This document shows positions 7,241-27,598 of a stretch of DNA of 28,011 nucleotides, in pieces; position 1 is the first letter of the stretch, and each line of letters starts with the position of its first letter. The position numbers were made by a program, and so were the translations under genes. Under the pieces are notes generated by a model. That model searched no databases and had not been told where the DNA came from. It saw only the letters and a program-made list of their open reading frames with translations. This stretch comes from a virus. The DNA is taken from the IMG/VR virus record IMGVR_UViG_3300009504_000030, positions 1-28,011 of that record. One strand, given 5' to 3'.

Positions 7241-10200
7241 CTAGGGTATTATGGCATACCTCCAGTTGTTAAGTCTGCTCCTGGCTGCTTGAGCTGGGAT
7301 GCCAAAGGATCTGTCCAGGGCTCCCAAGGCTTCCTCAATCTGTCTCCCTGCTGGGGAACCATAGGAAACTTTGGATACAGTGTATCTCTCCCAGAAGATA
7401 AGGAGTAGCTCAAACTCTGGGTTGTCCTTTCTCCAGTCATTCCTTAGCTTGGCTGGGGATGTTGGTATCTCATAGAACTCATCAAGTAGGTAGAGGAAGT
7501 CTAGGGCAAACTCCACTAGGGGTTCAAAGCCAACATCTGCAGTCACCATGTCCCTTGGAATGTTCTGGTTGCGGATGTAGGAGTCCACATCAGAAAGGAA
7601 GTTTCCCATCTCATAGATTTGGCCTACCTTACCTGGCTTGTCTGTGTAGACTACTCCAAGCTCTCCCTTTCTCTCGTTGAGGTAATTCACTGCCTCCACC
7701 ACCCTATCTAGCTCTGGAGGTGGGGTAGCAAAGACACCCTTGAGGATAGCATCCATAAGCTCAATCTCCAACACTTCTATCTCGGATGGAGTGTACTTAT
7801 CATCAAAGGCTGATCGGATAGCTTGGTAGGCTCTAAGATCGTAGTCAACCACCCCTTCTGGCAGGTGGCCTCTCATTGCCCCTGCTTCTAAGGACTCAAG
7901 CAAGTTGGTAGCAAAGGGGATGAATAGCTTGGGGGCTTCACTGAGGAAGAACTTGGTTACTGCTCTCACAGCCCTCCATCTCTCATCCTCCTCAGTGGTT
8001 GGATCAAGAGCTGTTGCCATAGCTTGAAAACCTCCACCAAGCTGGTTCACTGCTCCTATGATAAGACCACCCATCTCCCAGTACATGATGTCCCCTATCC
8101 AGTAGGATCGGTATGGTCTGCCATAGAGTTCACGGAGGTAGGAGGAGATTATCCCACCCATAGCTATCATGGCAATACTATCCTTGAAAGCAGCTAACCT
8201 TTGCCTTGGGGTGTATGTCTCTGCCCAGTCCTTACCAGACCACTTGAGGAAGTTGTTGTAGTGCCTAGTCCAGTAGCTTCGGGTGAAGGTGAGGAGATTG
8301 AACCATGTCCTCCCAGCAGCACCTTGCTCGATTGGTGCTCGGAAGGCTCTCTCATAGTTGAAGTGTGTTAGGTCTGCTACCTCCTTGCCTCGGTATAGGG
8401 CAGCAGCCTCATAGCCTGTGACTTGCTGGAGACCTTCAATGCCCATGTTGACATAGTTCTCCCCAATGGCAACGTACTGAAGGAAGAGGTCTTGCTGGGG
8501 CTTCTTTAGCACATCCATCCCTGCATCTCTGAGGAGTCTATTCACATCCCCATGCTTTCTGTAGGCTTGGATAGCCTCATGAGCCCTGACCATACCTGTA
8601 TTAAAGCTCCAATGCCTCGGAACATCATCAGATCTCCCATAGGGGGCTACCCTGTTGAGGAGACGGGTAAGGTTGTAGAGTGGCTTACCTATCATAAACC
8701 AATCCGCATAGAGAGGCTTAGTACCGTGAAAGAAGATACTCCGCTGGATACCAGTCATCTGACTTACAGTAGCCTTGTAGTAGAGGAGGGACTTTTGGTA
8801 CAGACCCTGATCTACTATCTTCCTAGCTCTTATTCCCTTGGGGAGCCATGACCTCTCTGGATGGAAGGCAAGGAACTGGGTGAAGTTTCTTAGAAGTACC
8901 CTTGCATTGGTGTGGAACAAAGCAGGGGATACGGTAGCATAGACCCGCTGGATGAACTTGTTGCCTCCTGCTTGAGACTCTGGGGGTGGGAAGTGCTGGA
9001 GCTCTTGGATGAACCTGGACATCTCATCATACATCTGGCCAGAGTCGGACATCTTGTCGGACACTTCCCCAAGATAGGTCTCAAAGGTATCCAATAGACC
9101 CTTGAGCTGCCACTGGGACTCTATCTGCCTGACATACTGCTCTATCCTCTCTGTGAGGGAATTGGACATATCAGGTATCTCCACACCAAACCTATGCTTT
9201 AGTCTGCCCTCTCCCCTTCTCTTGGAGCTATACTCTTGAGAGCTACGATTAAGTCCCTGCACTACTACCATCCAGGGTGTGTAGCCCTCTATCACTCCCC
9301 AGTCAAGGTTCATAATGTAGGCATCTCTGGATGCTGTCTCACCTCTCCTGGTCATGGTAACAGCCTTCTCCACTGTGGGTCTGTGGGACTCATCCAACAG
9401 CATCATCTTCATTATGGCATCCACATTGCCAGGATTGGCTTCATAGGCTTTGGAGAATGCAAGGACATTGATCTTGGGTCGGTAGGATTGGAAGATTTCC
9501 TCTACAACCTTAGCAAAGTTCTGCTCCAAGTGAATTAGATTCTGTGGTACTGCTACCTTGAACTTGGGATTCCTGGAAGCTATTAGCTGCTCTACTCTGG
9601 CAAGCATCTCTGGATTGTTGATGACTTGCTGGAAATCAGGGACTTTGGAGATTTTCTCCAGGATCAGACGGCTGGAATGCTCAATCTGGCCATGTACCTG
9701 CCTCATGAGATCATAGAGGGTGTAGAAGGGCTTGCCTGTTCTGGCCTCTAGGTTCATGAGGATGTATTTGGTGTCTAGGTGACCCTTAAACCACTTACGG
9801 AAGCCTGGGATGGTGGACATGTGCTCATAGGAGAGGCTCTTGTCATCAAGGAGGTTCACATCTATGGGGATTGTTACCTTGGCAGCAAGGTCAGGGTTCC
9901 TCTTGAGGTGGAGGGTTCGCTGGGCAAGGATGGCTTCTAAGGATGGTAGCTTGGCAAGGCCAGTGCTGGGGTCAGTGGGGAACTGCTCAGGGGAAGTGAT
10001 GGAAGTGGGTGGAGCATCGGAAGGTGGGGGAGCATTGCCTTGGTCTAGCTGGGCTTGCTTGATCTCTAGAGCAGCTTTCTCTTCCTGAAATATATTTAAG
10101 AATCTCTTCTGGTCTGCTTCATCATACTTCAGCTGTGCAATGGCAAGCTCAGTGTCCCTGATAGATTCTGGTGTAAGGAGTCTCCCTTTCTTTATGCTTT

Positions 10201-13200
10201 GCTCATGTCCCTCAATTATAGCCTGAATGAGCTTTATGTTATTCTCTCTCTGAGTAATGCTCTCATTCACTTTTATGATATTTCTAGCTAGATTATCCTG
10301 CTGGAGCATTCTGCCAAGATTGAAGTACTGGGCAAAGACCTTCTCAAAGGCTACAAGATCTGCTGTTTCCCTTCCTTCTGTCTGAAATCGTGTCCTTTGC
10401 TCGAAGTAAGCTGCAAAGGCTCTGGCATAGGATTCTTCCAGATTTCTGTATGTCTGCCATTGGGAATAAAGAAGATCAGCCATCCCACCAAGAGGTGTGG
10501 TAATAGGTCTCCCCAGTCTTTGAAGTTCTCTTATCTTCCTCTGCATCTTTGCAGCAAAGTCAGGGCTATAGGCTTTCCAAAACTCAAACCTTCCCTCATT
10601 GACGTCCATAGTAGAGATAGCATGGGCTACTTCATGGTAGAATGTATTATCAGTAAAGTCAGGACGAAGATACATAGTTCTGGTATCTTCTGCCCAACGA
10701 CCAAGGAACATTTCCCTTTGACCAGTTACAGGATCAATAGCACCTGGGGTAGGTAAATCAGCATCAATCTGTATTTCCCTTATATCGAACCTTACTGTCT
10801 CTTGAACTGTCTGGAGGAGGTGTGTAACTCTGTTCTTATCAGCTAATGACATCTCCCCATCTTGAGCATGGGTAAGTTTGATTTCTTCCAGGGGAGTGAC
10901 TGGAAGCCTTTGGGCAATGTCCCTTACTTGCTGTTGAAGAGCAAAGATTTCTTTCTGAATGGGAGTCATCTGTGCTTTCAAACGAATCATCTCTCCTGCT
11001 AACCTATCTAATGCTGAATCTCTTTCTTTCACTGAAGAATACTTCACTCTCCAGTTCTTTGATTTCCATTCCCAATCCCTCTGTTTATCATAGAGCTCTT
11101 TAGCAAGAGGCTCATACAGCTCATTAAGCTCCCTTTGCTTCTGCTGGAGAGCTTCCACTTGTTGCACCTGATCCCCCGACAGGGTACTGGTGTCTAGGGT
11201 CTGGAGGAACTCAGCCATTGACTTAGACTCATGGCTTTCCAAGGCCATCCTTATCTCCAATGGCAGCTGTTCCCAGGCCATCTCCGCATACTCCGTACCT
11301 ACGCCCTCCTTGCCTACAATACCAAGCTCCTCCAGGTATATCTTCTTGGCATCGGGGGGTCTGGTATCCCAGACTCTCATAGTCATTTGCCCCGACATGA
11401 GGGCTAGGTTATCAAGGTAGGCAAGGTGCTTTACCAAGGTCTCCTTCTCAGCACTTAGACCTTCCCTATCAGCCCTTAGCTGAGCTTCCAAAGCCCTTGC
11501 CTGCTCAAGACTAGCTGTCCTTCTCTCAATCTTGGCTGGGTCAATAGTTCTAGCCAGTACACGTTCATGGTGACTGATGGCCTTCTCTTGGAGTGTTATC
11601 TGCTCACTGAGAGCTTGCTCCTTGGTGAAAAGTTGGCTAAACTGACTCTCTACCTCATGGATGGACTGGATAAGTTCCCCACTCTGTGCTGCCTGACGGA
11701 AGACAGGCTCTAGCTGTCGGTAGGTCTTGGTCTTAGCCTTAGCCCCTTCTGTGGTCTCTATGAGCTCTAGGGCTGACATGACATTTGCCATCTCATTAGT
11801 CATACCAACACTCTCCAGCTGGGCAACTCTAGCCATGTGGGTGTCATACAAACCAGCCTCTACGAAGTTCTGGTGGAGGTAGTGGGTATGGGAAAATCCA
11901 CCATAACCAGATGGGATAAGGAAACTAAAGAAGGTTCGGTAAGCTACCTCATCAAGTCCCTCAGTTACTGAATCTATAACACCCTCATGATGGAGGACTG
12001 CATTACCAGTAGCTTGTACTGCTACTTCCACAAGCACCTCTGTAAGTTGGGTAACTGTAAAGGACTGCATCCCTCTCCTGAGTAATTCCCTCCTAGTCCC
12101 CCTAACAAGCTCCTTGATAACACCACCCATGAGCTCCTTATACACTTTGGGGGCAATAGCTCTAAGCATGACACTAGCTCCAGCCACCTCAAGGGCTCCA
12201 AGTGCGGGGACAAGTACTGCTGTCCACTTAGCTATTTCTGTCTCATCTATCCCCTCTTCCCGAAGCATCTCGATTACACGGGAAGTTTCTGCTGATCCAA
12301 TTACATAGGCAGATACCAACTTACCCAAAGCTGGGTTCTTAGTTAAGGCTGATACACCAATCATAGTTCCCATTGTCAGAGCCATGCTGGACACTGACTC
12401 GGTAAGAAGATGAGCCATATAGTCTGTGTCCTTTAGTATGCCCTCTAACCCCACCTCAGCTTTCTTATCCATAAAAGCTACTTGCTCATACTCTGGCATG
12501 ACAGGGAGCTTGTTCTCTTCTCTCCAATCCTTAGTTGCATCATGGACTTTGATGGAGAGCCCAGTTCCCCATATTACAATCTCCTCAGTCCTATCATCCT
12601 GCCATCTGTGGAATCTAGCTTCTGGAGAGTTCTGGTAGACTTCCTCTATGTTCTCCACCTGCTTATCAAACTCTTCACGAGTAACACCCAACTTCTCCAC
12701 TAGGGGGTCAATGTAAGCACCATCAAGGTAAGAACTAGGCTTGCCTAGACTAGCTATACCTTCAGATATTACTGCAAACATACCAGAAAGGAACATTGGG
12801 GTAGTTACACCAATACCTAGAGCCATATCTACAGTACGATTGATGATGTTGTTGAATGTACTCCTTACCACATGTATGTCTTCTTGGTCTTCCACAGAAG
12901 AATAGGGCTGACCAGTAGCAAAGTTCCAAGGAACAAACTCTCCCCTTTCCTCATCATAGACACCAAGGAGTTCATCATCAAGCCATACTGTAGCAGGAGT
13001 ATCGCCCAAGCCAGGGTAAAGTCTAGCTTGTACTGGCTCCCCATTCTCATCAAGGAGTGGAGTCCCATCCTCACTTATGAGGGTCTTTGGTACACCATCA
13101 TTGTAGAGCTTGATAAGGGAGAACATCTCTAGGGAGGTCTCTGGATTCTCCCTATCAAAGTTCACATTGTAATTACGTAAGAGCTCCTCCAGGTTCTTGT

Positions 13201-13894
13201 ACCACTCTTCCCCCATCTGGTCTTCAGGGATAGCTAAATGCTCACTGGGGGGGAAAGCATACATAAGGGCTTGGCGTATCTCCTCCGTATTCTGGGAGAA
13301 GGCTATGGAAGATAGGACATGCTCTGGACTGAGCTCCTTATCCTTCCAATAGTCCCTATAACTTGCTTCCGTTCCTGGGGCTATAATGTTCCAAAAGTCC
13401 CCAGACTTTATATCCTCTGGATCAGACTTAGCCAGTATTACCCCAAAGTTCATGAGATAGTCCTTCATCTCATCGGGGAATCTCCTAGCATCGGGAAAGA
13501 GCTGGTAGAACTTGGTAGCATCCTCGATGAAGTTGCCCCCGATAGCCAAAGCCATCATCTCATCCATGATCTGGGGAGATCTCTCCTGTGCATAGCGGAG
13601 TTTGTCTAGAGCCTTGATCTCCTCCTCTATCCGATAACGCTCCTCCCTTGCTGTACTGGGAAGCATGTGGGGGATAAGCCTATCAAGACCAGGAAGATGC
13701 TGTCTGGGTGGATCAAGCATCTTTCTCCCCAGCTTCTCCAGCCAGGGCTTTGACTCCCATACTGGATCATGGAAGTGGGAGTAGTAGAGCTCCTTGAGCT
13801 TATCAGATTGATCCTGGAGGGAAGCTAGTCTCTCCGCATCAGTGGGAGTGTATAGCTCTGGGAACTCTGGTAAGGTCAATTTCTTCTCTTCCAT
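7241..13894 (-). CDS. Giant internal virion protein with zincin motif
   Basis: A 2217-residue protein, 24% of the window, between portal and scaffold; ATG 13894 shares its A with the portal stop. Visible parts in order: residues ~350-378 hydrophobic (VTTPMFLSGMFAVISEGIASLG); ~491-532 and ~553-598 further hydrophobic or amphipathic helices; ~741-835 and ~910-996 long coiled coils; HEVAH at 1087-1091 within TFYHEVAHAI, the HExxH signature of zinc metallopeptidases; ~1285-1310 a Pro/Ser/Thr-rich linker; ~1900-1955 two more hydrophobic helices. Very large multi-domain proteins at this position are usually packaged in the head and ejected with the DNA (internal core or polyvalent proteins). The zincin could process virion or host proteins after entry. 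Role is inferred; the motif and architecture are seen. Confidence 0.75.
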   Translation of the reverse strand: MEEKKLTLPEFPELYTPTDAERLASLQDQSDKLKELYYSHFHDPVWESKPWLEKLGRKMLDPPRQHLPGLDRLIPHMLPSTAREERYRIEEEIKALDKLRYAQERSPQIMDEMMALAIGGNFIEDATKFYQLFPDARRFPDEMKDYLMNFGVILAKSDPEDIKSGDFWNIIAPGTEASYRDYWKDKELSPEHVLSSIAFSQNTEEIRQALMYAFPPSEHLAIPEDQMGEEWYKNLEELLRNYNVNFDRENPETSLEMFSLIKLYNDGVPKTLISEDGTPLLDENGEPVQARLYPGLGDTPATVWLDDELLGVYDEERGEFVPWNFATGQPYSSVEDQEDIHVVRSTFNNIINRTVDMALGIGVTTPMFLSGMFAVISEGIASLGKPSSYLDGAYIDPLVEKLGVTREEFDKQVENIEEVYQNSPEARFHRWQDDRTEEIVIWGTGLSIKVHDATKDWREENKLPVMPEYEQVAFMDKKAEVGLEGILKDTDYMAHLLTESVSSMALTMGTMIGVSALTKNPALGKLVSAYVIGSAETSRVIEMLREEGIDETEIAKWTAVLVPALGALEVAGASVMLRAIAPKVYKELMGGVIKELVRGTRRELLRRGMQSFTVTQLTEVLVEVAVQATGNAVLHHEGVIDSVTEGLDEVAYRTFFSFLIPSGYGGFSHTHYLHQNFVEAGLYDTHMARVAQLESVGMTNEMANVMSALELIETTEGAKAKTKTYRQLEPVFRQAAQSGELIQSIHEVESQFSQLFTKEQALSEQITLQEKAISHHERVLARTIDPAKIERRTASLEQARALEAQLRADREGLSAEKETLVKHLAYLDNLALMSGQMTMRVWDTRPPDAKKIYLEELGIVGKEGVGTEYAEMAWEQLPLEIRMALESHESKSMAEFLQTLDTSTLSGDQVQQVEALQQKQRELNELYEPLAKELYDKQRDWEWKSKNWRVKYSSVKERDSALDRLAGEMIRLKAQMTPIQKEIFALQQQVRDIAQRLPVTPLEEIKLTHAQDGEMSLADKNRVTHLLQTVQETVRFDIREIQIDADLPTPGAIDPVTGQREMFLGRWAEDTRTMYLRPDFTDNTFYHEVAHAISTMDVNEGRFEFWKAYSPDFAAKMQRKIRELQRLGRPITTPLGGMADLLYSQWQTYRNLEESYARAFAAYFEQRTRFQTEGRETADLVAFEKVFAQYFNLGRMLQQDNLARNIIKVNESITQRENNIKLIQAIIEGHEQSIKKGRLLTPESIRDTELAIAQLKYDEADQKRFLNIFQEEKAALEIKQAQLDQGNAPPPSDAPPTSITSPEQFPTDPSTGLAKLPSLEAILAQRTLHLKRNPDLAAKVTIPIDVNLLDDKSLSYEHMSTIPGFRKWFKGHLDTKYILMNLEARTGKPFYTLYDLMRQVHGQIEHSSRLILEKISKVPDFQQVINNPEMLARVEQLIASRNPKFKVAVPQNLIHLEQNFAKVVEEIFQSYRPKINVLAFSKAYEANPGNVDAIMKMMLLDESHRPTVEKAVTMTRRGETASRDAYIMNLDWGVIEGYTPWMVVVQGLNRSSQEYSSKRRGEGRLKHRFGVEIPDMSNSLTERIEQYVRQIESQWQLKGLLDTFETYLGEVSDKMSDSGQMYDEMSRFIQELQHFPPPESQAGGNKFIQRVYATVSPALFHTNARVLLRNFTQFLAFHPERSWLPKGIRARKIVDQGLYQKSLLYYKATVSQMTGIQRSIFFHGTKPLYADWFMIGKPLYNLTRLLNRVAPYGRSDDVPRHWSFNTGMVRAHEAIQAYRKHGDVNRLLRDAGMDVLKKPQQDLFLQYVAIGENYVNMGIEGLQQVTGYEAAALYRGKEVADLTHFNYERAFRAPIEQGAAGRTWFNLLTFTRSYWTRHYNNFLKWSGKDWAETYTPRQRLAAFKDSIAMIAMGGIISSYLRELYGRPYRSYWIGDIMYWEMGGLIIGAVNQLGGGFQAMATALDPTTEEDERWRAVRAVTKFFLSEAPKLFIPFATNLLESLEAGAMRGHLPEGVVDYDLRAYQAIRSAFDDKYTPSEIEVLEIELMDAILKGVFATPPPELDRVVEAVNYLNERKGELGVVYTDKPGKVGQIYEMGNFLSDVDSYIRNQNIPRDMVTADVGFEPLVEFALDFLYLLDEFYEIPTSPAKLRNDWRKDNPEFELLLIFWERYTVSKVSYGSPAGRQIEEALGALDRSFGIPAQAARSRLNNWRYAIIP

Positions 13895-21512: not shown

Positions 21513-21697
21513 TGGGAGGCTGTAGTAGGTGTAAGAGGAAGGTCAAGACCAGGAAGGTATTCTCTTTCATGCTCTGTGAGGAGTGTTGGAAGAGTAGCTC
21601 AGACTCAGTGAAGGAGCAGTACCCAACCTGGGGAGTCAAGAAGAAGTTACCTGATAGCCCAAAGCAAGATAGTATAAAGAAGGAGGAACGAGAATGA
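21512..21697 (+). CDS. Zinc-ribbon protein, 61 aa, upstream of the ubiquitin-like gene
   Basis: GTG 21512 overlaps the previous stop by one base and the TGA overlaps the ubiquitin-like gene's ATG (ATGA at 21694), so translation is coupled into the conjugation cassette. Two CxxC pairs, CSRCKRK (near residue 4) and CEECWKS (near 22), form a zinc ribbon; the C-terminal half is lysine-rich (WGVKKKLPDSPKQDSIKKEE). Tight coupling raises the possibility that it works with the ubiquitin-like system, for example as an adaptor. That is inference; it has no RING-type eight-ligand pattern. Confidence 0.65.
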   Translation: MGGCSRCKRKVKTRKVFSFMLCEECWKSSSDSVKEQYPTWGVKKKLPDSPKQDSIKKEERE

Positions 21698-21990
21698 CAG
21701 AAGAGACATTGGATGAGGGGATGGTGTTCGAGGAGTCACCAAGGTTCGGTGAGACTCAGAGGCCAGAGGATCATGTGATGGTGGATGTGGGCAGAGGAGG
21801 CACGGTAGTCAGGGTCAATGCAGGATCGGAGTTCGTGCCTACTCTGGAGAGACTGGCTGATGAGTACAACTACGGTGGGTTCTACAGGGTCTTCCTCAAT
21901 GGGAGTGAGGTGCTTGACCCAGGGGACTCCCCAGAGACTATCGAGGCTGGCATGAGGATTGCCATTACTCCCTATGACAAGGTAGGCTGA
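21694..21990 (+). CDS. Ubiquitin-like (beta-grasp) protein
   Basis: A 98-residue protein, ATG after AAGGAGGAACGAGA. Residues 1-27 are acidic and probably disordered. Residues 28-98 fit a ThiS/MoaD/ubiquitin beta-grasp order: strand VMVDVG (28-33), strand TVVRVN (37-42), helix VPTLERLADEY (48-58), strand YRVFLNGSEV (64-73), then the diagnostic end IEAGMRIAITPYDKVG (83-98), where relatives have 'l.dGD.i.i.p...GG'. It ends exactly at Val-Gly, with no extension to cleave. Followed by E2-like, E1-like and JAB genes, it is most likely the modifier that the pathway activates through its C-terminal Gly98. The fold is inferred from pattern; context strongly supports it. Confidence 0.75.
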   Translation: MTEETLDEGMVFEESPRFGETQRPEDHVMVDVGRGGTVVRVNAGSEFVPTLERLADEYNYGGFYRVFLNGSEVLDPGDSPETIEAGMRIAITPYDKVG

Positions 21991-21996
21991 GCCTAG

Positions 21997-22060
21997 TCTG
22001 CACTTCCAGCCCCCCAGCAATGCTTTGGGCTAGTTGAGCTGGGGGGTTGGGCTGTGCAGA
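21997..22060 (+). other. Very stable hairpin between ubiquitin-like and E2-like genes
   Basis: Outer arm TCTGCAC (21997-22003) with GTGCAGA (22054-22060); inner arm CCAGCCCCCCAGC (22006-22018) with GCTGGGGGGTTGG (22038-22050), 13 pairs with one G-U; a small TT/GCT internal loop joins them; apical loop 19 nt. It starts 7 nt after the ubiquitin-like stop and ends 23 nt before the E2-like ATG. No U-tract. Such a structure could protect or terminate part of the transcript, giving more modifier than enzyme. Confidence 0.7.
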
Positions 22061-22083
22061 GTAGCACAAGGAAGGAGAGGAAC

Positions 22084-23178
22084 ATGACAGAAAGAGTACC
22101 AGACACTATACCACTGTCAGAAGTGGTGTATGTCTTAGCTAACATGAAGAGTGAGAAGTTCCCAGAGGGTATACTCATACCCAATGACCTGGGAAACCAT
22201 GCCTTCTGCTCCATCACATCCAACTGTCCTGAAGCTGTTAAGCTCAACAGGGTGATGATGGAAGCTGGGCTGGAGTTCCAGGAGCTCTTGGTAGCATACA
22301 ATCAGGTGTATAGGCCAGTAAATCCTCTGGATAGCTTCACCATGCCTGAAGTGGATGGGAGGACAGCTATTGTCATTGGGACACAGAGGATAGAGATAGA
22401 CCTGACGGAGGTACTCAGGAATAGGGTAGGAACACAGCTCCAGGATATACTGTATAGGATGGAGAATCTGGAGAACACTGGGAGGGAGGCTATAAGGGGC
22501 TGTTACCTGTCCTATGTGAGGGCTGTTAGGGATGTGAGGCAGGCTAGGAGACTGGAGCAACTGACTATACCAACCAGGGAGTATGCCAAGTATCCTTGCT
22601 ATGTGAGCTCAGACCAGGGCAGGTATCTGTTCACCTTCTCATTCAACTATGAGCCACAGTGGATATACAGAGGTGGAGAAAGGTATGAGCTCAGTACACA
22701 GGACAAGGGAGATCTGCTCCAGTCTATCTTTCTCACCATACCTGTGTCTCCTGAGAGATCTATCTTCCAGCCATATCTGGTAGATGAGGCTGGGAGGACA
22801 TTCTCCCACTATCATGGCACTCATGGGGACTGCTGGGGGCATGTCAGGCTACCTACTAGGTGGGATGGTAGCTTGAAGCAGTTAGATGAGTTGAAGTGTG
22901 GACTGGAAGCTGCCTCAGCTACGATCAACATGGATAGTCTGATGAGTGATAATCCACCAGGGTTTCCAGATATTAGGGAACTGCTGGGTAGTTGTACTCA
23001 TCTGGGATCGGAAGGGGTAAGGAGGACAAGAGCACCAAGACCAGTGGAAGAGCATGAGGTGTACCTGGATGAGGACAGGGATGATGGGGATGATGATGAT
23101 GTTGATAATGAGCCTGATTTTATTGAACCAGTAAGACCACCAGCAAGAGGCTGGGGTGCAGCAAGGAGGGAAGGATGA
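22084..23178 (+). CDS. E2-like (UBC-fold) ubiquitin-conjugating candidate
   Basis: A 364-residue protein; ATG 22084 is chosen because AAGGAGAGGAAC precedes it, while an upstream in-frame GTG (22054) lies inside the hairpin. Residues ~95-160 are helical. Residues ~168-256 look like the UBC core: strands YLFTFSFNYEP, SIFLTIPVSPE and FQPYLVDEAGRTF, then SHYHGTHGDCWGHV (241-254). That carries H-x-H, a G-D-C-W-G turn and Cys250, matching the prokaryotic E2 pattern (HPH...G..C.G), with Cys250 as the candidate thioester residue. The C-terminus (328-347) is strongly acidic with a run of Asp. It sits between the modifier and the E1-like gene. The E2 call rests on motif and context; the protein is longer than typical E2 (about 150 residues). 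Confidence 0.6.
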   Translation: MTERVPDTIPLSEVVYVLANMKSEKFPEGILIPNDLGNHAFCSITSNCPEAVKLNRVMMEAGLEFQELLVAYNQVYRPVNPLDSFTMPEVDGRTAIVIGTQRIEIDLTEVLRNRVGTQLQDILYRMENLENTGREAIRGCYLSYVRAVRDVRQARRLEQLTIPTREYAKYPCYVSSDQGRYLFTFSFNYEPQWIYRGGERYELSTQDKGDLLQSIFLTIPVSPERSIFQPYLVDEAGRTFSHYHGTHGDCWGHVRLPTRWDGSLKQLDELKCGLEAASATINMDSLMSDNPPGFPDIRELLGSCTHLGSEGVRRTRAPRPVEEHEVYLDEDRDDGDDDDVDNEPDFIEPVRPPARGWGAARREG

Positions 23179-23438
23179 AATATCCAGATGGAGTAACACA
23201 CCATGATGTTATGCAAAGGAGAGAACAGTTAATAGAGCTTCGTAACTCCTCATGTAATGATGAGAACCTTAGCTTAGAAGAGGTTTCACTGGACTTATAT
23301 GAAGCTCTACTGAATGTGTATCAGGACATTGACTTGTCCCTATATGGATCAGATGAACTCAACATACAAGTTAAGCAAGCTATCTCTAAGAAAGAGGTTT
23401 GGATAGCAGAAGGGATTGCTCAGAGAAGGAGGACATAG
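23175..23438 (+). CDS. Hypothetical protein inside the ubiquitin-like operon, 87 aa
   Basis: ATG 23175 overlaps the E2-like stop (ATGA) and its TAG (23436-23438) abuts the E1-like ATG, so it is fully embedded in the cassette. The 87-residue product is helical and acidic (HHDVMQRREQLIELRNS, then LEEVSLDLYEALLNVYQDIDLSLYG), ending basic (IAQRRRT). Codon use is more AT-rich than its neighbours. No family recognised. Position suggests an adaptor, inhibitor or specificity factor for the E1/E2 pair, which is inference. Confidence 0.65.
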   Translation: MKYPDGVTHHDVMQRREQLIELRNSSCNDENLSLEEVSLDLYEALLNVYQDIDLSLYGSDELNIQVKQAISKKEVWIAEGIAQRRRT

Positions 23439-24101
23439 ATGCCAGATGAATTGTATGACAGGCAAACTACACTGTACCTGGATATACCAAGTGAGGTGAC
23501 GGTGGTGGGACTGGGTGGCATAGGCTTCTGGGTTGCTACCTTTGCAGCCCTATCGGGAGTGTCCACTCTCTACCTATTTGATGGGGATACACTGGAGGAG
23601 TCCAACCGTAATAGGCTGCCAGTCTGCCAGTCCTCCATCAACAGGCCAAAGGTGGAGGTAGCTGCTGACTACATAGGGAGTATGAGGCCTGATGCTACGG
23701 TAGTGCCTATCAAGGAGAGGCTGGAAGGGCAGTTGCTACAGATACAGATGAGCATATCCAATACCTTCATTGACTGCACTGATAGCCCCAAGTGTCAGAT
23801 AACTCTGTATAATGAGTGCAAGAAGTGGGGCAAGAGATTCATTCGTGCAGGGTACGATGGTACTAGGGTAATGGTAACGAGCCATGTCAGTGGCTGGATC
23901 AAGGGGGACTCGGAGGAAGAGAACTATCAGGTGAACCCTAGCTGGGTAGTTCCAGCTGCGACAGTAGCTGCACTGGCTGTGGGGAAGCTGCTGAAGTATC
24001 GAGACCAGGAAGTGGGACTGGATATGTCGGAGATTGGGATACCAGTGGTACAAAGGCAAGCTAGAACTACTGCTAGATGTAGACAGCAAGGAAGGAGGTA
24101 A
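23439..24101 (+). CDS. E1-like / ThiF-family adenylating enzyme
   Basis: A 220-residue protein with GGAGGACATAG before its ATG. ThiF/E1 features in order: YDRQ at 6-9; nucleotide-binding loop GLGGIG (24-29); FDGDTLEESNRNR (47-59), holding Asp48/Asp50, Asn56 and Arg59 of the ATP site; conserved Lys71 in NRPK; DCTD at 112-115, the Mg/adenylate strand-end motif; and a C-terminal VPAATVAALAVGKLLKY helix (171-187). It would adenylate the ubiquitin-like C-terminus. Zinc CxxC pairs of ThiF/MoeB are absent and no cysteine occupies the usual E1 thioester region between DCTD and the last helix except Cys119 and Cys127, so it may be an adenylation-only E1. It is slightly shorter than typical ThiF (~250). 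Confidence 0.88.
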   Translation: MPDELYDRQTTLYLDIPSEVTVVGLGGIGFWVATFAALSGVSTLYLFDGDTLEESNRNRLPVCQSSINRPKVEVAADYIGSMRPDATVVPIKERLEGQLLQIQMSISNTFIDCTDSPKCQITLYNECKKWGKRFIRAGYDGTRVMVTSHVSGWIKGDSEEENYQVNPSWVVPAATVAALAVGKLLKYRDQEVGLDMSEIGIPVVQRQARTTARCRQQGRR

Positions 24102-24104
24102 GCA

Positions 24105-24917
24105 ATGGCCTGGGGTAAGGATAGTGCTAACAATGGAGTAACATGCTCGGAGGTGGGTAAGCCTGACATCTACATAGAGGTCAAGGCTAGGCAGAAGATA
24201 CAGTACCTGATGGAGGAGTACACGAGTCAGGAATGGTTGGGATATCTGGTGGGTAGGGAGTCTGAGAAGAAGAACTTCTTTGTGGAAGACCTGGTAGTGC
24301 CACCTCATGCTGAGGCTTCGGGAGCCTGTGCTGAGGCTGAGCCTAACACAGTACCTGAAGGGTGTGTGGGGATTATACACTCCCATCACAGCATGGGAGC
24401 ATTCCATAGCCACACTGACAAGACCTATGCTGACAGGAACCACCCCATCTCCATCACGGTGGCAAGGAGGCAAGGGGAGCTGGAGTATGATGGGGTATCA
24501 CTGCAACGGACACCATGTGGTAAGCTGACCACGGTAGCCTGTGATGTCAGGTATGTGGCTCCACCACCAGCCTTTGACAAGGATGAGTGGCTGGAGGAGG
24601 CCAAGGAGAACATAGCGAAGGGTAAGAAGGTGGTGACAGTGGTATATCCACAGTCCCCTTTTGGCAGAACGGTCTACCGTGGGACACATCACTCCTCATG
24701 TACGGGGACTAAGGGGCTGACCAAGGCTGAGAAGAAGGCACTGAAGAAGGCTAGGAAGGAAGTGGAGAAGCCCAGGCCACTGGTGACACAGGAGGACATA
24801 GAGGAGCTCAATGAGCTGTATGTTAATCAGTTTGGACAGACGCTCACTAGGGCTGAGGTGGAGGACATGCTGGCTAATGGTGACCCAAGAGGAAGAGGGC
24901 TGGATTACTGGGATTAA
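24105..24917 (+). CDS. JAB/JAMM metallo-isopeptidase
   Basis: A 270-residue protein; ATG follows AAGGAGGTAAGCA, which also ends the E1-like frame. The JAMM zinc site is complete: Glu43 (QEWLGYLVG, the usual E-x-x-G-x-L-x-G), then His92-x-His94, Ser102 and Asp105 (H-x-H-x7-S-x2-D). In this family the site cleaves ubiquitin-like proteins from targets or trims their C-termini. Because the partner modifier already ends at Gly, removal from substrates is the more likely task. Residues ~205-225 are lysine-rich (KAEKKALKKARKE) and the last ~40 are acidic/helical, an extra C-terminal region beyond the catalytic core. The gene is the last catalytic member of the cassette. Confidence 0.88.
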   Translation: MAWGKDSANNGVTCSEVGKPDIYIEVKARQKIQYLMEEYTSQEWLGYLVGRESEKKNFFVEDLVVPPHAEASGACAEAEPNTVPEGCVGIIHSHHSMGAFHSHTDKTYADRNHPISITVARRQGELEYDGVSLQRTPCGKLTTVACDVRYVAPPPAFDKDEWLEEAKENIAKGKKVVTVVYPQSPFGRTVYRGTHHSSCTGTKGLTKAEKKALKKARKEVEKPRPLVTQEDIEELNELYVNQFGQTLTRAEVEDMLANGDPRGRGLDYWD

Positions 24918-24926
24918 GGAGGACAG

Positions 24927-25136
24927 ATGGTAGATAAGATATGCTCATTCTGTAGGGAGTCATATGTCTTTGCTGATGGGCATGACTATGACAGGTGTGT
25001 GAAGGAGTGCGAGGAGAAGTTGAGTGTTGCTGTGAGAATACTTAGTCGAAGATACTGGGCATTGAACTGTGCTAAGGAGATACAAGGTCAGGACTGGTGG
25101 AGAAGTAAGAAGGGCTGGAGTAAAAAGGAGGACTGA
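24927..25136 (+). CDS. Small Cys-rich (zinc-finger-like) protein, 69 aa
   Basis: ATG 24927 follows AAGGAGGACAG, 9 nt after the JAB stop. The 69-residue product has CSFC (6-9) and C-x3-C (RCVKEC, near 24-28), a possible zinc site, followed by a basic Trp-rich C-terminus (AKEIQGQDWWRSKKGWSKKED). Its TGA abuts the next ATG. It may be a further adaptor linked to the conjugation genes or an unrelated early protein; no family recognised. Confidence 0.6.
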   Translation: MVDKICSFCRESYVFADGHDYDRCVKECEEKLSVAVRILSRRYWALNCAKEIQGQDWWRSKKGWSKKED

Positions 25137-25394
25137 ATGGATCATGGAGAATGGATGGAAGCTCAGGATATGCTGCAAGAGATGAGGAAGGCTAGGAGGA
25201 GGGTGAGTAGGATATCCTACGACTGTATGAAGCTCAGGGTTAGAGGAGATAGGACTTACTGTGAGCTTGGGAAGAGGCTTACTACAGCCAAGGATGGGTC
25301 ACTGGCACTGGAGGCTGCCTTCAAGGGGTACACGCCGAAGATCTGCTTTACCTGTCCTGACTTTGATGGGGAGGAAGGAGGAGAGGAGCTATGA
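25137..25394 (+). CDS. Cys-rich hypothetical protein, 85 aa
   Basis: ATG 25137 directly follows the previous stop, with AGGAGG inside it; the TGA overlaps the next ATG (ATGA). Residues 1-25 are a basic helix (EAQDMLQEMRKARRRVSR). Four cysteines follow: Cys30, Cys42, and the pair in ICFTCPDF near the C-terminus, with YCELGKRL between. This spacing could bind zinc. Pattern seen in many small phage proteins; function unknown. Confidence 0.6.
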   Translation: MDHGEWMEAQDMLQEMRKARRRVSRISYDCMKLRVRGDRTYCELGKRLTTAKDGSLALEAAFKGYTPKICFTCPDFDGEEGGEEL

Positions 25395-25934: not shown

Positions 25935-26675
25935 TTGAGTATCCACGATGTTCAGGAATACGTGCAGACTCCTGTATTCCATCCCCCATTCATTATTGAG
26001 CATGTGCTACCAAGAGGGGGCAAGCTGCTCCTCTATGGGAAGGCAGGGGTGATGAAGAGCTGGCTTGCCCAGTACAAGGGCTTCTGCATAGCTACGGGGA
26101 CAGAGTGGCTTGGGTTGGAGACCACCCAGGCTAGGGTGCTACTGGTTAACTTTGAGATAAGTAACTGGAGTTATCACCATAGGCTCTGTCTGATGGCTAA
26201 CCAATTCTCCCTTGAGCCCCAAGTATTGTATGAGTACTCCCCTTCTATTCTGTATCTTGATGACCCCAGTGTATTTAGGAGGTTCAAGGCAAGGGTGGAT
26301 GAGGTGGAGCCAGAGGTCATCATCTTGGACTGTATGTCTGGCTGCTTTGGTGGAGATGAGAACAATAGTAGGGAGATGTCAGGGTTCATTGGGAATCTGG
26401 AGGAGCTCAAGGGTGATGGGAGGAGTCTGGTGCTTATCCACCACTCCAACAAGAATATCCTGGCTGTTGATCAGATGGATAAGGCAAGGGGTCATAGTAA
26501 GCTGGTAGGGAGGGTGGATAGTATCCTGCACCTGGTTAACCAGCCATCTGGGAAGCAGTTGCAATTTGGGAAAACCAGACATGCCCCATTCCAGATGCAT
26601 AGTAAGAACCTGGTGTTTGAGGACTATGTATGGGGGATAAGGGGGCAGGTGCAAGGAGGGACAGAGATGGGTTAG
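25935..26675 (+). CDS. RepA/RecA-like ATPase (AAA_25 type)
   Basis: A 246-residue protein beginning at TTG 25935, right after AAGGAGGTGGA; no in-frame ATG fits. The P-loop is at residues 35-42 (GKAGVMKS), with Met40 where most have Gly before the Lys. FEIS (73-76) follows the second strand. Walker B is VIILD with Asp132, and IHHSNK (168-173) is the His-containing sensor strand typical of RepA-like hexameric helicases and replicative ATPases. VGRVDSILHL is also family-like. It is short and lacks a visible primase or zinc domain. It is likely a replication helicase-like or recombination mediator ATPase. Confidence 0.78.
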   Translation: MSIHDVQEYVQTPVFHPPFIIEHVLPRGGKLLLYGKAGVMKSWLAQYKGFCIATGTEWLGLETTQARVLLVNFEISNWSYHHRLCLMANQFSLEPQVLYEYSPSILYLDDPSVFRRFKARVDEVEPEVIILDCMSGCFGGDENNSREMSGFIGNLEELKGDGRSLVLIHHSNKNILAVDQMDKARGHSKLVGRVDSILHLVNQPSGKQLQFGKTRHAPFQMHSKNLVFEDYVWGIRGQVQGGTEMG

Positions 26676-26893: not shown

Positions 26894-27598
26894 ATGCCAT
26901 TAACAGATAGGAGTCAAGCCAAGGAAGGAGGCTGGGCACAGGTCAGGGAAGCACTGGTGTCCTTTGAGGGGGATGTCAAGGGTGCTGAGTTTGATCAGTG
27001 GGGTGGACAGCTGTTTGATGAGGAGGGAAAGAAACGACCACCCAAGGAGTTCCTGGAGATACAGTGTGACAATGTGGAAGTGCTGGAGGTGACTGAGGAA
27101 CTCACCATGAACATCACGGACATGAACTTCAGGGTCAACTGTAGTGATTTCAAGGGTAGCTTCTGGATAGATGAGTTCCTTGCATCGGCAGATGAGCACA
27201 AGATCATTGTCCCCCAAGGGCTGATAGGCAAGAGGCTGGTCTTCAAGAAGAAGACACTGGTGGCTAAGAACAAGGATGGGTCGGATAATCCCAAGTATAA
27301 CTCCACTAACTATGTGATAGTGGGAGTGAAGGGGAGTAAGTCAGCTGTACAGCCAACCACACAGCCTACCCCCGAAGTGCCATCGGAGCCAGCCACTCCA
27401 CCTGGAGACCCGATGGTGGTAGCAGCTAACATTGCTGTTGGTAAGACAGAGGCACAGTTCAAGACAGCCATAGCCCTGGAACCTTCCTTTGTTGGAAGCC
27501 CACTGCTATCCCTGGCCAAGACTGGTATGCTAACACAGGCACTGGTGAGTGAAGGCAGGCTGGTACTGGGTGAGGATGGCAAGTACCAGAAGGCTTAG
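26894..27598 (+). CDS. Putative OB-like DNA-binding / replication-associated protein
   Basis: A 234-residue protein, ATG after AAGGAGGACTAAC. Residues ~35-145 are beta-rich and alternate charged and hydrophobic residues (EFLEIQCDNVEVLEV, then NITDMNFRVNCSDFKGSFWIDEFLASADEH, then LIGKRLVFKKKTLVAKNKDGS), a pattern compatible with an OB fold. Residues ~150-175 are a Pro/Thr-rich linker (QPTTQPTPEVPSEPATPP). The last ~55 residues form a helical domain (GKTEAQFKTAIALEPSFVGSPLLSLAKTGMLTQALVSEGRLVLGEDGKYQ) that looks like a small winged-helix-like module. Position after the ATPase gene fits a single-strand-binding or loader partner. Fold and role are inference. Confidence 0.55.
   Translation: MPLTDRSQAKEGGWAQVREALVSFEGDVKGAEFDQWGGQLFDEEGKKRPPKEFLEIQCDNVEVLEVTEELTMNITDMNFRVNCSDFKGSFWIDEFLASADEHKIIVPQGLIGKRLVFKKKTLVAKNKDGSDNPKYNSTNYVIVGVKGSKSAVQPTTQPTPEVPSEPATPPGDPMVVAANIAVGKTEAQFKTAIALEPSFVGSPLLSLAKTGMLTQALVSEGRLVLGEDGKYQKA

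Follow-up and report, generated by a model that had tools for sequence, protein, structure and literature searches.

What use would a phage have for genes that attach and remove a ubiquitin-like protein (Ubl)? In prokaryotes, complete sets of E1, E2, Ubl and JAMM protease are known as host defence operons, whereas those described here are owned by phages, occur in two lineages and lie beside replication genes. The question is raised by the virus contig IMGVR_UViG_3300009504_000030, analysed over its 28,011 bases (linear and possibly incomplete; hereafter the window). Five open reading frames (ORFs), all on the plus strand, occupy positions 21694-24917 in a densely packed gene run. An earlier reading made from the letters alone (the sequence-only reading) had described them as a complete conjugation and removal pathway in a phage early operon. 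ORF calls, Pfam searches and alignments confirmed the lengths and residues it gave, and a complete modifier, E1, E2 and JAMM set in an early-type phage gene cluster is supported by a four-gene order that is kept across many phages. Judging by sequence, these genes very probably form a dedicated Ubl conjugation and removal pathway. Our answer, with a probability of roughly 0.55, is that this pathway is reversible, phage-owned and part of the replication module, and is not a captured defence operon. It is built on the observed gene content and order, the catalytic residues, the selection acting on the set and its neighbours.

Components of the set and their active sites

The E1 gene product matches the ThiF family (PF00899, E = 4.8e-23), and its GLGGIG, D48-x-D50, N56, R59, K71 and DCTD112-115 are invariant in 23 aligned sequences; the features that define the ThiF/E1 family (GxGGxG, DxD...N..R, Lys and CTD) are all present. 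Profile comparison with the PDB retrieved ThiF, UBA5, UBA1, BubCD and Cap2, and the nearest NCBIfam models are ThiF/MoeB (2e-16). In canonical E1s, a catalytic cysteine takes the modifier as a thioester. This cysteine is absent from the window E1, which has P167-S168-W169 at that place, and all 23 window-type E1s aligned show [P/S]-S-[W/F] where the E1s of a second gene layout, described below, hold an invariant cysteine (e.g. P-C-T-x-K). Since the window-type E1 lacks this residue, the modifier probably passes straight from the acyl-adenylate to Cys250 of the E2-like protein. Such a direct attack by Cys250 would be the simplest working path, and an oxyester on Ser168 would be the alternative.

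The 364-residue protein had been proposed as an E2 with a candidate catalytic Cys250. H242, Y243, H244, C250 and G252 are invariant across 29 aligned sequences, which gives the active-site cysteine with a preceding His motif that is expected of an E2, and HxH...C-x-G is also present in the second layout. In the AlphaFold2 model the core is well predicted (most blocks of residues 165-310 have a predicted local distance difference test score, pLDDT, of 85-97, and the score exceeds 90 over most of the core); a 45-residue helix lies ahead of it, and the protein ends in a disordered acidic tail, in which a conserved Trp lies close to the C-terminus. Among the 50 PDB structures that match the model best, about two thirds have UBC, UEV or UFC1 folds; comparison with the viral predicted structures of BFVD gave only noise. 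The model suggests that the core around Cys250 likely, though not provably, has the UBC fold. In one phage group (L060, L071, L114 and L115) the E2 genes are in tandem, with HYHxxxxDCWG intact in both copies.

For the 98-residue modifier, as for the E2, searches of Pfam, PHROGs, NCBIfam and PADLOC returned nothing beyond noise. Modelled by AlphaFold2 from 27 sequences, the modifier is predicted to run beta-beta-alpha-beta-beta-beta (mean pLDDT 79), and the PDB structures closest to the model are those of ubiquitin, SUMO, MoaD and ThiS (E of about 0.006-0.04, probability near 1, and 1.00 for the top matches at about 0.006). The beta-grasp anticipated for this protein was therefore predicted, and it is combined with the C-terminal glycine expected of a modifier, found in at least 90% of 27 aligned Ubls; some relatives carry 1-6 residues more. 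A few relatives end in Ala instead of Gly. In this respect, cGAS ending in Ala still permits a thioester with Cap2 (PMC10097602).

The protease belongs to Prok-JAB (PF14464, E = 4.9e-8, passing the curated cut-off). The residues of the JAMM/MPN+ zinc site (E43 and H92xH94x7S102xxD105) are invariant in 21 of 21 JABs, as are the cysteines C14 and C138. Much larger JABs of 531-643 residues were also observed (L070 3289-5034, L071 2365-4296 and L124/L125), some with Cys-rich, zinc-ribbon-like C-terminal parts. Downstream of JAB, different genes (L071 5809-9439, L073 431-6039) have the N-terminal motif MRLxxYLxE in common, possibly as a signal for targeting like the T4 capsid-targeting sequence.

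The fifth gene, encoding an 87-residue protein, had been counted as a member of the set. It is missing between E2 and E1 in the relatives L002, L003, L004 and L083, so it was rejected as a pathway member and probably does not belong to the core; the conserved set consists of four genes.

Distribution and replication neighbourhood

The JAB search retrieved close relatives with the same gene order on three contigs (L002-L004); L083 was found through E1 and L079 through the E2 motif, and L005 is a distant relative. The sequence-only reading had proposed looking for this order in other phages, and the DNA pattern HYHx4[DN]CWG located about 20 further phage contigs, nearly all of which carry the four genes when their length is adequate. 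Wherever all four genes were present (23 of 23 loci, some of which share a contig), they were arranged as Ubl-E2-E1-JAB on one strand. The invariance of the catalytic residues across the aligned relatives means that these residues are not due to chance, and the conservation of the set shows that it is real. Moreover, the genes are under purifying selection, with Nei-Gojobori ratios of nonsynonymous to synonymous substitution (dN/dS) of 0.07-0.26 in the pairs with usable dS.

The larger window-type phages encode a conserved 249-residue protein directly upstream of Ubl or within about 1.2 kb (gap of 34-1165 nt, same strand, 22 loci). Upstream of it lie T4-type clamp loader subunits (phrog_168 up to 1e-63, PF21328, phrog_225, and PF16790 at 2e-12). 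The family matches DNA polymerase processivity factors (phrog_223, 4.5e-7; phrog_947, 1e-4), and only reached E = 0.3 with PCNA in the PDB; the processivity-factor profile and the clamp-loader neighbours together are those of a sliding clamp. In a search that started from the clamp and made no use of the Ubl genes, the set or its Ubl-E2 part was present at 26 of 32 clamp loci, and in one pair the constraint on E1 (dN/dS 0.08) is similar to that on the clamp (0.09). One phage contig (L053/L099) has clamp, Ubl and E2, with E1 and JAB not found within the next 4.6 kb, and another (L022 1377-5976) has an E1/JAB locus of a different make-up, in which two small genes are Ubl-like and two genes are E1-like.

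Near the set in the window and its close relatives lie an AAA_25/RepA-type ATPase, which also adjoins the set in L002, L004 and L083, and a conserved 234-residue protein. A third neighbourhood belongs to the second layout. With the pattern H[ST]HHSMG of the JAB profile, 45 viral loci were retrieved, many of which are ordered Ubl-E2-JAB-E1, in dozens of phages. There the genes downstream of the set encode a Sak4-type ATPase (phrog_124, 7e-25), a probable single-stranded DNA-binding (SSB)-like protein, identified by position and its acidic-aromatic tail, and a DnaB-type primase-helicase. In the Ubl of this layout Ser-Gly is invariant, and after it come either 0-12 residues or an additional domain. 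Profile comparison between the layouts gave a probability of 4.5% for the E2 types, with a sensible alignment of the motif, and 25% for the Ubl types. E1 and JAB of both layouts are likely of one origin, and the profile comparison does not demonstrate a common origin of E2 and Ubl. A single inherited gene order would hardly account for three distinct replication neighbourhoods, and the recurrence of replication genes beside the set points to the replication module of the phage itself.

Named phages carry the second layout. Searched with window-type DNA and protein sequences, they yielded no relative of E2 or of the clamp, and ThiF relatives that were only distant. tblastn found the JAB in 52 records, chiefly of Bacteroides crAss-like and Flavobacterium phages. 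In crAss001 the set comprises gp79 (a Ubl domain, then KSG and a C-terminal part), gp78 (E2 motif), gp77 (JAMM) and gp76, and the existing annotation already names gp77 a metalloprotease and gp76 ThiF. Around it are the adjoining primase gp80, the ATP-binding protein gp84, the helicase gp85 and the uracil-DNA glycosylase gp74. The same set corresponds to gp53-gp50 in Flavobacterium phage FpV4 and to DAC15_91-88 in Bacteroides phage DAC15, where the products are annotated merely as hypothetical proteins.

The set is almost confined to viruses. Among 84,980 prokaryote species genomes scanned for the JAB motif, one relative was found, versus the 45 viral loci found with the same JAB profile; the motif is narrow, so that divergent bacterial relatives could escape it. 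The single relative is a Thermodesulfobacterium metagenome-assembled genome contig with a full set and a lysozyme-type gene, for which it is considered phage-like.

Gene map of the window

Coordinates are collected in Table 1. The E2 start is placed at the ATG behind a GGAGAGGA Shine-Dalgarno sequence, and an alternative GTG at 22054 would extend the protein to 374 residues. The hairpin between the Ubl and E2 genes has a folding energy of -49.2 kcal/mol (z -3.4; 0 of 200 shuffles equally good), and no matching intergenic hairpin was seen in L002-L004. It is possibly an attenuator or a processing site, through which Ubl would be expressed at a higher level than the enzymes.

Table 1. Features of the window in and around the probable Ubl conjugation set
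Feature	Coordinates	Strand	Remarks
Ubl modifier	21694..21990	+	98 aa; C-terminus ...YDKVG; predicted beta-grasp (residues 27-94)
RNA hairpin between Ubl and E2 genes	21997..22060	+	7 + 14 bp stem
E2-like protein	22084..23178	+	364 aa; H242-Y-H244-x5-C250-x-G252
87-aa protein, function unassigned	23175..23438	+	Between E2 and E1; not kept in relatives
Minimal E1/ThiF adenylating enzyme	23439..24101	+	220 aa
JAMM/MPN+ protease	24105..24917	+	270 aa; signature HSHHSMGAFHS
Putative zinc-binding protein	24927..25136	+	69 aa; CxxC...H...CxxxC; similar near the JAB gene of L002
Cys-rich protein	25137..25394	+	85 aa; similar (by eye) downstream of JAB in L003 and L004
AAA_25/RepA-type ATPase, replication module	25935..26675	+	1e-24; primase/helicase PHROGs 7e-21
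234-aa protein	26894..27598	+	Downstream of the set; kept in L002, L003 and L083

The 69-residue putative zinc-binding protein is a possible accessory of the set, and so is the 85-residue Cys-rich protein. The 234-residue protein gave no match in family searches including Pfam and PHROGs, and it may be called SSB-like by position only. The minus strand of the window carries the major head protein (phrog_212, 3e-55), the tail genes and a 2217-residue protein with no PHROG match (7241-13894). In other phages of the survey, the DNA polymerase B gene is split in two (L089, L092 at G015:C1:120979-123444, L084 and L090), one of these genes being interrupted by an endonuclease-like ORF, and an intein-like sequence (VVSNC) was observed at L074 9656-10513.

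Proposed pathway and alternative explanations

In the proposed pathway, the JAMM protease would trim the short C-terminal tails of those Ubls that have them, the window Ubl already ending in Gly; this step is proposed because the glycine is conserved and the tails vary. The ThiF-type E1 would then adenylate the Ubl C-terminus, as its conserved ATP site and catalytic residues indicate, and Cys250 of the E2, aided by H242 and H244, would attack the acyl-adenylate directly. With its long helix and tail, the E2 may hand the Ubl to a target lysine with no obvious E3, and the JAMM protease could later take the tag off. The likeliest targets would be the phage sliding clamp, SSB and the helicase-type ATPase, akin to the modification of PCNA in eukaryotes. 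We put the chance that the target is a replisome protein at slightly below even. For a clamp or replisome target, PCNA ubiquitylation by Rad6/Rad18 would be a functional parallel, with no claim of homology. More tentative, and rather unlikely in its entirety, is the proposal that phages including Crassvirales use a Ubl system to modify the replisome covalently, foremost its sliding clamp, one lineage doing so through a cysteine-less E1 that feeds the E2 from the acyl-adenylate.

Several points weigh against this pathway and its link with replication. Foldseek found no PDB match of the E2 model at E <= 0.001 (the best UBC match has 0.24), and by sequence the protein gave no match. The processivity-factor match of the 249-residue family is modest (4.5e-7 at best, and in no more than 5 of 10 members), and a clamp of this family was not found on the window, which is possibly incomplete, or on the shorter contigs of its close relatives. 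The same clamp is encoded without the set in L109, L110 and L117-L120, and since 6 of the 32 clamp loci lack it, the set is accessory. Gene neighbourhood in phages may reflect nothing more than a common timing, and a common early timing could contribute to the three replication neighbourhoods. Two candidate clamp-binding tails were also discarded. The tail of window-type E2s (DVWGS and similar) was rejected as a clamp peptide, as the C-terminal motif of these phages' DNA polymerases is another one, LxLFF. The QxxLF tail of second-layout E2s resembles bacterial clamp-binding peptides; its codons overlap the conserved JAB start (K-V/I-x-Y-F-L) in another frame. This overlap explains the motif, which is consequently not used as evidence; it is not clear in L041, where E2 and JAB do not overlap, and its background is 20 of 621 ORFs.

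The comparison with Bil, Bub and CBASS made in the sequence-only reading held for the chemistry and failed for membership. Type II CBASS (Cap2/Cap3) and the other 6a-6e operons described by Iyer et al. 2006 (PMC1779556) share E1, E2 and JAB chemistry with the phage set, whose E1 and E2 are separate and which has its own Ubl; the CD-NTase, fused Cap2 and Cap3 of type II do not occur together here, as no CD-NTase was present among the set and the scanned neighbours, and no metallo-beta-lactamase partner was recognised. The E1 nevertheless matches PADLOC E1-E2 defence models in addition to the Cap2 and BubCD structures, host systems of compatible chemistry exist, and the set is accessory, all of which would fit a Ubl that tags host immune proteins or a JAMM protease that strips host Bil- or CBASS-type conjugates. 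However, stripping needs no full conjugation chain, the set accompanies replication genes in two separate layouts, and its strong purifying selection, with E1 evolving about as slowly as the clamp, is unlike that of typical arms-race genes. The earlier suggestions that host defence proteins are tagged or a host Ubl defence is countered found no specific support, replication neighbours being found instead, and a counter-defence function is regarded as improbable. A sulfur relay, in which the Ubl is a ThiS/MoaD-like thiocarboxylate carrier for nucleotide or tRNA modification and the "E2" its acceptor enzyme, is at least as improbable. It would fit the nearness of the E1 to ThiF/MoeB and the presence of ThiS and MoaD among the structural matches of the Ubl, and some sulfur-carrier proteins are likewise processed by JAMM proteases; yet the loci read showed no recognisable rhodanese, cysteine desulfurase or thio-modification enzyme next to the set, and an E2-like protein whose invariant HxH...C-x-G resembles the HPN...C site of E2s is present in every complete set.

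Bil (BilABCD) has the same four parts (Ubl, E2, JAMM protease and E1) and is a host defence with a two-domain Ubl, BilA, and a CEHH motif in its E2, BilB (PMC11354881). By analogy with it, the phage set might tag the structural proteins of competing phages. But the phage Ubl has one domain, the E2 carries HxH-x(n)-C-x-G with no Glu/His/His at Bil spacing after C250, the minimal E1 lacks the catalytic cysteine, and the genes are phage-borne in a replication cluster, not in a moron or lysogeny locus, so that defence against other phages is still less probable. Least probable of all, and very unlikely, is an assembly tag for virion or protein maturation, as proposed for the Ubl and JAB pair of lambda, tail proteins I and K. 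Lambdoid tail clusters do contain such genes (PMC1779556); they are tail assembly loci (TAPI/TAPK) described there without E1 and E2, whereas the set of the window lies opposite in strand to the structural genes and is grouped with replication genes. The PRTRC plasmid system also has unfused Ubl, E2-like, JAB and ThiF components on a mobile element, with faint JAB similarity (E = 0.02-0.08). It is said to be row 6d of Iyer et al. 2006. Membership was rejected, as the NCBIfam PRTRC models matched only below the cut-off and no ParB-related gene was seen adjoining the set.

A reversible, phage-owned pathway within the replication module thus remains the preferred explanation. No report of complete sets in phages was found in the literature searched, where many subscription papers were not covered and priority is thus not certain; the lambda tail pair I and K was the only phage Ubl/JAB pair found described. 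The papers on crAss-like phages that were searched do not mention ubiquitin or ThiF, and a match for Crassvirales and ubiquitin merely cites work on Bil.

The cultured carriers crAss001, DAC15 (grown on Bacteroides thetaiotaomicron VPI-5484) and FpV4 make the proposal testable now. If the link with the clamp is true, it would be a prokaryotic parallel to the modification of PCNA, and if the set works, Ubl signalling would be part of the normal biology of some of the commonest viruses of the human gut.

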